A stretch of DNA of 64,000 nt, taken from Sulfurimonas autotrophica DSM 16294. GTDB taxonomy: Bacteria; Campylobacterota; Campylobacteria; Campylobacterales; Sulfurimonadaceae. Each line of letters starts with the position of its first letter. Within the stretch, counting starts at the first letter, position 1. This document shows, in pieces, positions 6,739 through 56,851 of this stretch. A program made the position numbers and the translations under genes. The notes under the pieces were generated by a model. It was not told where the DNA came from. It did no database searches and was given only the letters and a program-made list of their open reading frames with translations. The stretch spans positions 1,240,001 through 1,304,000 of the forward strand of contig NC_014506.1 in NCBI RefSeq assembly GCF_000147355.1. Reading direction: 5' to 3'.

Positions 6739-7503
6739 TTATTCAAACTGACTTACACGATCAGCAGGTGCCAAGTATGCAAGCAGTTTCGCTTCAAGAA
6801 CCCTAGGTGCATCACCAGATTGAATAGACATAATACCCTCAAGTATCATCTGTTTGAGCATAGTCTCCTCATCATTTCTAATACTCAAAATATTAGAAAT
6901 CGGTGTTCCAAATATATTACCAATCATTGCCCCATACATTGTTGTAAGGAGTGCAACTGCCATCGATGGACCGATTGCCGAAGGATCTGCCATATTTAAA
7001 AGCATGGCAACCAAACCAACCAGGGTTCCAATCATACCCATTGCCCCCGCAAGTCCTGCCCACTGATTAAAAATCGAAGCATAAACCTTATGGCGTGTAC
7101 TTGTTTGTTCCATATCAATTTCAAGTAAATCACGAATAGTATCAGGTTCACTACCGTCAATAGCCATGGAGAGTCCTTTTTTCAAAAACTCATTTTCTTC
7201 ATTGTTAACCTCACTCTCCAAAGCCAAAATACCGTCCTTTCTCGCTTTAGTTGCAAACTCTACAAGTTTTTTAATAAGCTCACCAATATCTTCTTCGCCA
7301 GGTTTGATAGCTTTCATAAATACTTTAGTGAATTTTTTCATCTGAGCAGGTTTGAAGGAGATCATCAATGCCCCGATACTACCCCCGACAACGATTAAAA
7401 CAGAAGGAATGTCAATATATGCACCGACACCAACACCCATTGTCATGGCTCCAAGCAAAAGAGCCATAATCAAAACAATACCAATGACCGTACCTAAATC
7501 CAT
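6739..7503 (-). CDS. motA: Flagellar stator protein MotA
   Basis: 254 residues with the four-helix MotA layout: N-terminal helices (GTVIGIVLIMALLLGAMTMG, SVLIVVGGSIGALMISF), a cytoplasmic loop that contacts FliG (LVEFATKARKDGILALE), and the C-terminal pair of helices (LAGAMGMIGTLVGLVAMLL, GPSMAVALLTTMYGAMIGNI). First gene of motA-motB-fliP. No sigma54 or sigma28 box is evident upstream. The 211-bp leader contains a palindromic element (7567-7630) and an AT-rich stretch with a TATAAT near 7697. Confidence 0.95.
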   Translation of the reverse strand: MDLGTVIGIVLIMALLLGAMTMGVGVGAYIDIPSVLIVVGGSIGALMISFKPAQMKKFTKVFMKAIKPGEEDIGELIKKLVEFATKARKDGILALESEVNNEENEFLKKGLSMAIDGSEPDTIRDLLEIDMEQTSTRHKVYASIFNQWAGLAGAMGMIGTLVGLVAMLLNMADPSAIGPSMAVALLTTMYGAMIGNIFGTPISNILSIRNDEETMLKQMILEGIMSIQSGDAPRVLEAKLLAYLAPADRVSQFE

Positions 7504-7566
7504 CCAAAAACCTTATTTAAGAAATCAAGTTCAAATAAAACCGTATTTTATCTTGTTCTTTTAGCC

Positions 7567-7630
7567 CTAGTCAAATGATTTTAATCGTCGCGTAGCTAAG
7601 GCTATGCTCCTCATAAAATAATTTGACTAG
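7567..7630. repeat. 64-bp near-palindromic element upstream of motA
   Basis: Outer arms CTAGTCAAAT (7567-7576) and ATTTGACTAG (7621-7630) are perfect. Next come ATTTTA/TAAAAT (7578-7583/7114-offset partner at 7614-7619), and an inner stem GCGTAGC (7590-7596) with GCTATGC (7601-7607) and a 4-nt loop. The three stems are separated by a mismatch and an internal loop. It lies between the end of the PAP2 gene and motA and has no coding sense. The size and form fit a dispersed palindromic repeat or a folded RNA leader. Only one copy was found in this window. Confidence 0.55.
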
Positions 7631-7714
7631 AACGAAAATAACATTGCTACAATCTCGCTCTTATTTAAACTTAATCCCTAAAAAATTTATAATTACATTA
7701 TAATAGCACAATAA

Positions 7715-8395
7715 TTATAAAGAGTAAATTTTATTGACTATCTTTGCAATGAGTAAAATAATCAACCATGCCAAAATCATCGTTATAACTGTATGGCTGA
7801 AAAAATGATCACCTATAATCATTTTATACAGCCCCATACTCCAGCCGACTGCCAAAGCAGAAGTACCGGCAATAATTTTGTGTTTTCTTTTATGAAATAA
7901 AAAGATAAGGCTCAAGAGTGCAAAACCGCCGCTTGCATGTCCTGCAGGCCAGCATTTACTTTTTTCATGGTGGAGTTTGAACTCCGGCGTGTAATTTTGC
8001 CATACTGCCGTTCTTGGGTATATACCACCGTATCTTACTTCATCTTTCGGGCAAGGCATATTTGTTTGGCCTTTTATAGAACTTGCAATTAGCGGAACAA
8101 AAATAGCTGATAAAATAACAATTATCATTCCTCTTTTATAGTCATTGACTAATTTTGTTTTTCTAAAAAGTATTAGTGCAATTAACAAACTCACAGCAAA
8201 GGCAATTAAGAGTTTTTTAATTCCGTCATAAAATATAAATTTGTAAGGCTCTTCACCCCAAAAAAGAATCCATTTATGTGTCGAAAAATTGAAAAATTCA
8301 TCTTGCAAGCTAAGATCAACATCAGTGATACCAAAAAATACAATACTAAAAAGCAGTACTATAAAGGTAACGACAAGCTGTTGATTAATGTTCAT
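7715..8395 (-). CDS. PAP2-family membrane phosphatase, LpxE-like
   Basis: 226 residues, six hydrophobic segments. PAP2 phosphatase motifs are visible in order: KGQTNMPCP (form of KxxxxxxRP with the Arg replaced), PAGHASGG (form of PSGH) and GDHFFSHTVIT (form of SRxxxxxHxxxD). It overlaps eptA by 11 nt. In Helicobacter pylori the neighbouring pair LpxE (HP0021) and EptA (HP0022) removes the lipid A 1-phosphate and replaces it with phosphoethanolamine. The same arrangement here suggests the same role at the inner-membrane periplasmic face. Another lipid phosphatase activity is possible. Confidence 0.75.
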   Translation of the reverse strand: MNINQQLVVTFIVLLFSIVFFGITDVDLSLQDEFFNFSTHKWILFWGEEPYKFIFYDGIKKLLIAFAVSLLIALILFRKTKLVNDYKRGMIIVILSAIFVPLIASSIKGQTNMPCPKDEVRYGGIYPRTAVWQNYTPEFKLHHEKSKCWPAGHASGGFALLSLIFLFHKRKHKIIAGTSALAVGWSMGLYKMIIGDHFFSHTVITMILAWLIILLIAKIVNKIYSL

Positions 8396-55232: not shown

Positions 55233-56851
55233 GAAATATCCTTGTAATAGCTCAAGAAAATATCTTCAAAAGTATTTGCGTCCGGATGGGACTGGTAAAG
55301 ATTCTCTATGGTGTCATCTGCAATTTTTTTCCCTTGTTTGAGCAGTACAACTCTGTCACAGTATTCCGCCTCACTCATATAGTGCGTCGTAATAAGTATG
55401 GAAATATTCCACTGCTCTTTGAGTTTTCTGAGTATCTCCCAAAACTGTGCTCTTGCAATAGTATCGACCCCGCTTGTCGGCTCATCCAAAAAGAGCACAA
55501 GCGGTTCATGCAGCAGTGCCGCTGCAATGGAAAAACGCTGATTTACTCCCAGTGGCAAAGCCGTCGGTAAATCATCCATATACTCTTTAAAGCCAAGTTC
55601 ATTTGCATACTCTTCAATTCTTTTTAATGCTGTATCAATAGGCAACCTGTGCATATTGGCAAAATAAATAAGATTTTCCCGTACGGTCATATCGTTGTAT
55701 AAGGCAAAATGTTGGCTTACATAACCGATTTTAGATTTGAGTTCTCTACGGTCAAGTCCACTATGGATAACTTTGTCAAGCAGCGTCAGTTCACCGTCAT
55801 CTATGGAATATAATCCCAGCAGCATTTTAATAAAAGTAGTTTTTCCTGCCCCGTTTGCCCCTAAAAGCCCTAAAATTTCACCCCGTTTGAGTTCTATATC
55901 TACATGGTCATTCGCTGTAAAATTGCCAAATCTTTTTGTGATACCCTTTGCCTGCATCACAACTTGGGGCATTTCAAGTTCTTCATCTCTTTTGACTATA
56001 TCAATTTTAGGCAAAAGTTTTTTCTTTTGCAGGGCATTGACAAAAAAGAGTCCTTCGAGTGTAGGTTCTGTCTGCTTTACATGTAAAGGCTCCAGCGAGT
56101 AGGTACGTTTGTTAAATGCAAGACAGTTTTCTGTACAATCACTCTGCTCATATACATAAGGACGTATAGAGTCTAGAAGCTCTTCATTTGTTCCCCGCGC
56201 AATAATTTCCCCTTCATCAAACAGAAGAATTTTATCCATCTTGGAGGCTTCTTGCATATAAGCGGTACTTACCAAAATGACGGTACCTTCCTCTTTTCGT
56301 ATAGTGTCTAAAATTTCCCATAACTCTAAACGGCTTAAAGGATCTACCCCCGTTGTCGGCTCATCCAAAATGAGCAGTTTTGGACGATGTAAAAGTGTAC
56401 AAATCAGTGAAAGTTTTTGCATCATTCCGCCGCTAAGCTTTCCTGCTTCTCTATTAACAAAATCACTCAAACCTGCCATATGAAGTAACTTTTCTCTGTA
56501 AGCCATAAACTTTTCGTCTTTTTTTACATCACGAATATCGGCAAAAAATTGCAAATGCTCGCCTACCGTTAACGTATCATAAAGTACAAGTCCTATTCCT
56601 TGAGGCATCAGTCCTATAAAAGGTTTTACCTGCTCTGCTTCTTTTGGTGAATGATAAGCTATATTGTTGTAAACAACTTCACCATCGAAGCGAATCACAC
56701 CTGCTATAGCATGCATCAATGAGCTTTTTCCTGCTCCGTCTGCACCGATAAAACCAATAATCTCTCCACTGTTAGCTTGCAAAGAGGCATTTTTTATACC
56801 TACTCTTTTTTTATAAGTTACTGTTACATTTTTTACTTCAAGAATAGACAT
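55229..56851 (-). CDS. ybhF: Double-ATPase ABC exporter subunit (YbhF-like)
   Basis: About 540 residues from ATG 56851, just 7 bp after the ybhG stop; an earlier in-frame start would lie inside ybhG. It has two nucleotide-binding domains. The first has Walker A GADGAGKSS, signature LSGGMMQKL and Walker B LLILDEPTTGVDP. The second has GANGAGKTT, FLDEPTSGVD and a degenerate signature LPLGVNQRFS instead of LSGGQ. The active sites are therefore not equivalent. It powers the YbhSR permeases. Confidence 0.92.
   Translation of the reverse strand: MSILEVKNVTVTYKKRVGIKNASLQANSGEIIGFIGADGAGKSSLMHAIAGVIRFDGEVVYNNIAYHSPKEAEQVKPFIGLMPQGIGLVLYDTLTVGEHLQFFADIRDVKKDEKFMAYREKLLHMAGLSDFVNREAGKLSGGMMQKLSLICTLLHRPKLLILDEPTTGVDPLSRLELWEILDTIRKEEGTVILVSTAYMQEASKMDKILLFDEGEIIARGTNEELLDSIRPYVYEQSDCTENCLAFNKRTYSLEPLHVKQTEPTLEGLFFVNALQKKKLLPKIDIVKRDEELEMPQVVMQAKGITKRFGNFTANDHVDIELKRGEILGLLGANGAGKTTFIKMLLGLYSIDDGELTLLDKVIHSGLDRRELKSKIGYVSQHFALYNDMTVRENLIYFANMHRLPIDTALKRIEEYANELGFKEYMDDLPTALPLGVNQRFSIAAALLHEPLVLFLDEPTSGVDTIARAQFWEILRKLKEQWNISILITTHYMSEAEYCDRVVLLKQGKKIADDTIENLYQSHPDANTFEDIFLSYYKDIS

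Follow-up and report, generated by a model that had tools for sequence, protein, structure and literature searches.

A palindrome of 64 bp lies in the spacer before motA, the first gene of motAB-fliP in Sulfurimonas autotrophica DSM 16294, and raises the question of whether it is a mobile element or a part of the regulation of the flagellar motor genes. A first-pass annotation of the 64,000-nt stretch of DNA analysed here (the window) proposed a MITE-like element, a REP-like element, or a folded 5' leader of the motAB-fliP transcript. As described below, the palindrome very probably forms the middle of a MITE 158 bp long, which was inserted before motA and derives, as a short non-autonomous form, from the ISAzo13 family of insertion sequences (IS). 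This assignment, made by sequence comparison, is based on copies in relatives, TTA/TAA duplications, empty sites, and a terminal repeat bordering an ISAzo13 remnant. The features of the locus are listed in Table 1.

Table 1. Features of the motA upstream region, in window positions
Feature	Position	Strand	Basis
motA coding sequence	6739..7503	-	name from the first-pass annotation and sequence reading
motA ribosome-binding site (RBS) TAAGG, outside the element	7511..7515	-	identical before motA in G011 and G117
Left target-site duplication TAA	7518..7520	+	
Whole MITE, 158 bp	7521..7678	.	homology to five 159–161-bp copies elsewhere; missing from the empty sites of G011 and G117
Left terminal inverted repeat	7521..7539	+	differs from GGAATCAAAATTAAATAAA at 4 of 19 positions
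Left-arm promoter-like site directed at motA, TTGACT-18-TAAAAT	7545..7574	-	consensus match only
Central 64-bp palindrome of the first-pass annotation	7567..7630	.	folding, pair covariation
Apex hairpin GCGTAGCTAAGGCTATGC	7590..7607	+	similar apices in other hairpin elements
Right-arm promoter-like site directed outwards, TTGACT-19-TACAAT	7623..7653	+	sequence reading and alignment A2
Right terminal inverted repeat	7660..7678	-	differs from the family repeat at 5 of 19 positions
Right target-site duplication TAA	7679..7681	+	
Putative native motA promoter, -10 (TATTATAAT)	7697..7705	-	motif GTGSTAWYATAA in 30 of 30 motA loci

Structure and stability of the palindrome

The palindrome is real. 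Its 10-bp arms, CTAGTCAAAT and ATTTGACTAG, are perfect, as is the 6-bp stem that had been described, and the inner stem comprises 7 bp including one G-U pair. One unpaired base per side follows the 10-bp arms, and an internal loop of 6+6 bases precedes the inner stem. The spacing had also been given correctly, with 84 bases to the preceding open reading frame (which ends at 7715) and 63 to motA. The reading of CTAG as the ends of the element was wrong, as the tetranucleotide is internal and a weaker, mismatched pairing runs outwards to 7521 and 7678.

As RNA, the palindrome folds with an MFE of -24.3 kcal/mol on the + strand (z -7.25) and of -23.3 on the opposite strand (z -5.93), and on neither strand were any of 200 shuffles as stable. 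It ranks second for stability among the 64-nt segments of the 64 kb, behind the one at 55465, in a scan of the + strand only (step of 8 bases plus the palindrome's own segment, scored there at -23.3). At a length of 158 nt, 1597 segments were compared (step of 40, both strands folded). The one at 7521, which corresponds to the whole element, came out as the most stable, its MFE on the motA strand being -54.9 kcal/mol and the mean -29.4.

A hairpin of this strength, located at the above distance past the upstream frame, might end transcription of the upstream gene as an intrinsic terminator, perhaps working in both directions. However, no T-run follows the stem, and a terminator scan returned 0 sites. 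The native motA promoter is located upstream of the hairpin, so that termination would cut its transcript, yet for the S. autotrophica type strain motility by means of a polar flagellum has been described (PMC3035374). The terminator function is regarded as very improbable.

Boundaries and distribution of the element

The MITE-like reading of the first-pass annotation stands in kind, as shown by the length of 158 bp, the terminal inverted repeats and the TAA duplication; its boundaries have moved outwards to those in Table 1. The search for a target-site duplication, which had been suggested as a check, revealed TAA at both flanks. The element is short and non-coding, with no overlapping open reading frame of at least 80 aa.

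Among 60 relatives searched, a match was found in G034 (87% over 115 bp), beside prfB, a name given by sequence reading, rather than motA. When the G034 copy was used as the query, 37 of 135 genus genomes matched at E <= 0.01, mostly over short stretches. At most six candidates per genome were scored, and among these, long matches besides those in G034 and the own genome occurred in G125 (two), G112, G014, G062, G090, and G130. Full copies of the family measure 158–161 bp. Outside the window there are five two-ended copies of 159–161 bp, namely G034:C170, G125:C213, G125:C19, G112:C248, and G062:C8, and their ends are GGAATCAAAATTAAATAAA or near variants of it.

In total, 15 two-ended insertions with these repeats are known in the genus, including the window element and these five copies. 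Short two-ended forms are found at G125:C29 (46 bp), G125:C40 (30 bp), and G034:C8 (40 bp), while G062 contains three of 102 bp (C35, C47, C57) and three of 35–36 bp (C90, C3, C2). Several insertions are thus present in each of G125, G034, and G062. Matched TTA/TAA duplications flank 13 of the 15, the window element among them; the two exceptions are G062:C3, with TTA and TAA, and G034:C8, with TCA and TTA when read on one strand.

In a sample of 398 genomes from the order, with two candidates scored per genome and E <= 1e-5, a match was found in the own genome only (1 of 398). The terminal-repeat pattern, with up to 3 mismatches, matched 53 of the 135 genus genomes, and its reversed control also matched many. 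Because the pattern also finds gene starts of the type TAAGGAatcAAAATG, single matches with 3 mismatches were not taken as copies. In four contigs of a Bacteroidetes MAG (RDXZ01; L117, L119, L120, L123), the same terminal repeat as in the Sulfurimonas MITE accompanies another interior. Both ends are present in three of these contigs, separated by 206–208 bp and flanked by matching TTA or TAA triplets.

MITEs usually exist in several copies per host genome, although a single copy may be all that is left of an old family. No second copy was found in the own genome (G000, one contig, 2,153,198 bases), which lacks this usual multicopy hallmark. Among the weaker matches, which are 13–24 bp long, those at 176323, 644852, 660552, 629, 612174, and 1696927 were examined and yielded no second copy. 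For the first-pass annotation, a single genomic copy would have spoken against its proposal. The single copy was indeed what the own genome contained, but this test misleads, because the family occurs in other genomes at other loci. Judging by the copies in relatives, the window element is a lone, decayed member of a MITE family.

The alternative of a REP-like element, or more specifically a REP/RAYT-type palindrome spread by TnpA-REP, would account for an intergenic palindrome with the tetranucleotide CTAG at the foot of its hairpin. REPs are 20–40 bp long and high-copy (PMC3733652), in contrast to the single 158-bp copy found here, with its IS-type terminal repeats and 3-bp duplication. The REP-like reading is not supported, and its probability is considered close to nil.

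Conservation of pairing across copies

Alignment A2 comprises the six full copies of the MITE; a seventh copy without ends, G130:C128, was left out. The 23 pairs of the core are standard in 93.5% of the cells, a value reached in 1 of 500 shuffles. At three core pairs, at least one copy has both partners replaced (6 of 500 shuffles), and the covariation score of the core is 0.125 (1 of 500). The number of further pair types in the core was not unusual (85 of 500). When the partner is shifted by 1–3 columns, core pairing falls to 28–40%. Coming from six related sequences, the covariation can be taken as modest evidence. Besides selection, template switching may keep the arms of palindromic elements matched. 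In the window copy, the terminal repeats have decayed (Table 1) and the inner arms are perfect.

Probable relationship to the ISAzo13 family

The likely parent is indicated by G062, which is probably a Sulfurimonas crateris MAG. At the end of its contig C90, the repeat GGAATCAAAATTAAATAA borders the C-terminal 73 residues of a transposase matching ISAzo13. This fragment matches NCBIfam NF033519 with 1.8e-15, which is below the whole-protein cut-off, as expected for a fragment, and Pfam PF07592 with 4.6e-13, which is over the cut-off. A second ISAzo13 stretch, containing a stop codon, is located on the far side of the C90 repeat. On contig C16, the repeat is followed by the start of a frame in two places; the 33-aa N-terminal fragment had no match to any family. 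A complete autonomous IS was not encountered, the pieces in G062 being at contig ends or interrupted. A decayed ISAzo13 end with a similar repeat, TAAGGATTGAAAATTAAATAAT, beside it is also present in G047, from another family of the order. PF07592 matches were obtained in 2 of the 135 genus genomes (one over the cut-off) and, at E <= 1e-10, in 3 of the 398 order genomes. The own genome gave no PF07592 match, and no ISAzo13 transposase was found in it.

The 3-bp TTA/TAA duplication of the MITE family agrees with the duplication size of the ISAzo13 family, as ISAzo13 and Zator are described as producing 3-bp duplications (PMC10045372). In a comparison with the left end of the IS, none of 2000 shuffles was as good as the 102-bp MITE of G062, compared with 3 of 2000 for the G125 copy and 43 of 2000 for G062:C8. 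The likeness of the centre of the window MITE is weak (29 of 2000). We infer that an ISAzo13 transposase acting in trans may have moved the MITE into TAA (TTA on the motA strand), duplicating the triplet. What is left would be a lone, decaying copy, which is presumably immobile because no ISAzo13 transposase was detected in the own genome.

A separate observation concerns stop codons at the insertion sites. In 6 of the 15 two-ended insertions (G034:C170, G112:C248, G125:C29, G125:C40, G062:C90, G062:C2), an open frame of at least 100 codons ends exactly at the duplication, where the stop is either TAA itself or TAG, formed by TTA plus the G of the element. Among the non-disruptive TTA/TAA sites of the window, the corresponding figure is 20 of 320 (binomial 0.0002); without the three short G062 elements, the count is 4 of 12 (0.005). 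As the observed side may include genes truncated by the element, and the window serves as a stand-in for other genomes, this excess is mentioned only as a side remark.

Insertion between the motA promoter and the ribosome-binding site

MotA orthologues are present in 48 of 60 genus genomes, and 30 motA loci, including the own one, were examined. The promoter motif listed in Table 1 was counted over whole loci and is also seen before motA. The core of the element occurs in 1 of the 30, the own locus. In G011 and G117, whose MotA proteins are each 96% identical to that of the window, the upstream gene, promoter, and RBS are alike by reading, and the site is empty; in G011 it reads ...TATTATAATGTAATTATAAATTTTTCATAAGGTTTTTGGATG. 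Because the same neighbours and promoter exist there without the element, it appears to have entered the motA 5' UTR after the split from G011 and G117. A clean loss from both is possible, albeit less likely. The behaviour expected of a MITE is seen in these empty sites together with the copies at other loci in G034, G125 (two), G112, and G062.

The distribution also bears on the proposal of a conserved structured 5' leader, such as a riboswitch, thermosensor, or attenuator, controlling motAB. The very stable fold on the transcript strand, the promoter upstream and the RBS downstream, and the compensatory changes in the core are all in line with such a leader. Against this, the core is present in only one of the 30 motA loci, the own one, and relatives have the element beside other genes. 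An Rfam search of 7400–7800 gave nothing above the gathering score, and a match to MIR2630 (E 0.008; 24.4 bits against a cut-off of 144) was taken as chance. A motA-specific riboswitch or leader was rejected because of the empty sites in G011 and G117, and a conserved leader of any kind is highly unlikely. The folded leader of the first-pass annotation survives in another sense: because the element is located between the conserved motA promoter and the RBS, a folded leader is plausible as a consequence of the insertion.

A different palindrome upstream of motA was observed in G018, another genome of the genus (L171, 1166–1217). It has 15-bp perfect arms, AGACTTCTGTCATAA, and an MFE of -30.8 with flanks, and it also sits between the motA promoter and the RBS. 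This is possibly an independent hairpin insertion into a motA leader.

Possible effects on motAB expression

With the motA promoter and RBS kept after insertion of the MITE, native transcripts would carry a leader forming one long stem. The native start is estimated at about 7690, which gives a predicted leader of about 187 nt compared with about 24 nt in G011. Together with 40–43 nt of coding sequence, the MFE of the leader is -62.9 kcal/mol, versus -7.0 in G011. In the RBS region, bases are unpaired with a mean probability of 0.52, versus 0.59 in G011, and because these values hardly differ, the model gives no sign of blocked motA translation. The stem could serve as a substrate of RNase III or partly hinder transcription.

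The element also contains promoter-like sites in both arms. In the right arm, the 19-nt spacer is outside the range of the promoter scan, and the -10 reads TATAAT in three of five aligned relatives. From the -35/-10-like site of the left arm, a second, short motA transcript could start near 7538, with a predicted leader of 35 nt. This site allows for the explanation that the element is kept by selection, its left-arm promoter now driving motAB-fliP as an exapted MITE promoter. The distance of the site from motA is fitting, and its -35 is located within the well-kept core, whereas the terminal repeats have decayed. In A2, the corresponding -10 is TAGAAT in three of five relatives and another sequence in two; with TAAAAT, the window is nearer to the consensus than those three. 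Nevertheless, the site is a consensus match only, in a region (7400–7850) where the scan found 6 such matches against 2.7 +/- 1.7 in shuffles, and the native promoter looks intact, so that a second one is not needed. Exaptation is thus considered possible but rather unlikely. As regards the MITE as an insertion that left the native signals in place, we infer that some effect on motAB expression is conceivable, with the chances put a little below even.

A shared apex hairpin

The apex of the window MITE resembles those of other hairpin elements. A pattern based on the core of another element, L013, was found in 12 of the 135 genus genomes at 16 places, with 0 matches for the reversed control. 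All 16 places are in large hairpins, each with a GGGTTTTTAGAGGTGCCC-like end or its complement as judged by eye, and these ends differ from those of the window MITE. The own genome contains a palindromic element of a second family, L203 (G000:C1:96188-96455), with GGGCACCTCTAA... ends and an MFE of -124.4 with flanks. Its apex, GCGTAGCTATGGCTATGC, is one base off that of the window MITE. Partial matches to the L203 end pattern are present in the own genome at 1152524 and 1696851.

Similar apices, in several copies each, also occur in the other genera represented by G039, G167, and G199/G321. Across the order, the apex pattern, which is self-complementary in any case, gave 16 matches in 9 of 398 genomes; with 15 matches, the reversed control reached nearly the same number, and the count by itself is no sign of enrichment. 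Their clustering in a few genomes (five in G039 and two each in G000, G167, and G321) is suggestive. Ten of the 16 were folded, and most are in longer hairpins; L207 (G343) is unlike such an element. Tentatively, and with more doubt than confidence, the apex CGTAGC-N4-GCTAYG can be proposed as a portable module acquired independently by hairpin MITE families, including the second family with GGGCACCTCTAAAAACCC-like ends. In that case, central parts would be swapped between MITE families through recombination, or elements with this apex would be favoured by a host factor that recognises it.

Comparison with known elements and significance

RUP of pneumococcus has terminal repeats and a host different from those of the Sulfurimonas MITE. 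Like RUP and other bacterial MITEs, the element is short, non-autonomous, and mobile, with terminal inverted repeats; RUP is reported as 107 bp long with 108 copies (PMC2229807). The Correia elements (CREE/NEMIS) of Neisseria, the longest class of which is given as 153–157 bp with about 120–250 copies per genome (PMC2649163), share with it the inverted repeats, promoter elements at the ends, the RNA hairpin, and the position between promoter and gene. In N. meningitidis, one such element sits between mtrCDE and its native promoter, and its cleavage there by RNase III is reported as demonstrated (PMC2649163). The terminal sequences and the host differ, and one copy was found in the own genome.

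To the ISAzo13 family of IS, which is described as related to the eukaryotic Zator (PMC10045372, PMC5718144), the MITE is linked by its terminal repeat, which borders an ISAzo13 transposase remnant in the genus, and by the 3-bp duplications. It differs in its lack of an open reading frame of at least 80 aa and in the small size of its full copies.

No description of an ISAzo13-linked MITE family in Sulfurimonas was found in the portions of the literature searched, and the consulted part of PMC9208149 treats MITEs only in general terms. For Sulfurimonas, a hairpin MITE family probably tied to ISAzo13 is added, of a kind that is itself familiar in bacteria. G011 and G117 on the one hand and the window on the other allow a clean comparison of empty and occupied sites at the operon of a flagellar motor, which is useful for tests of how a long hairpin in a leader affects expression.
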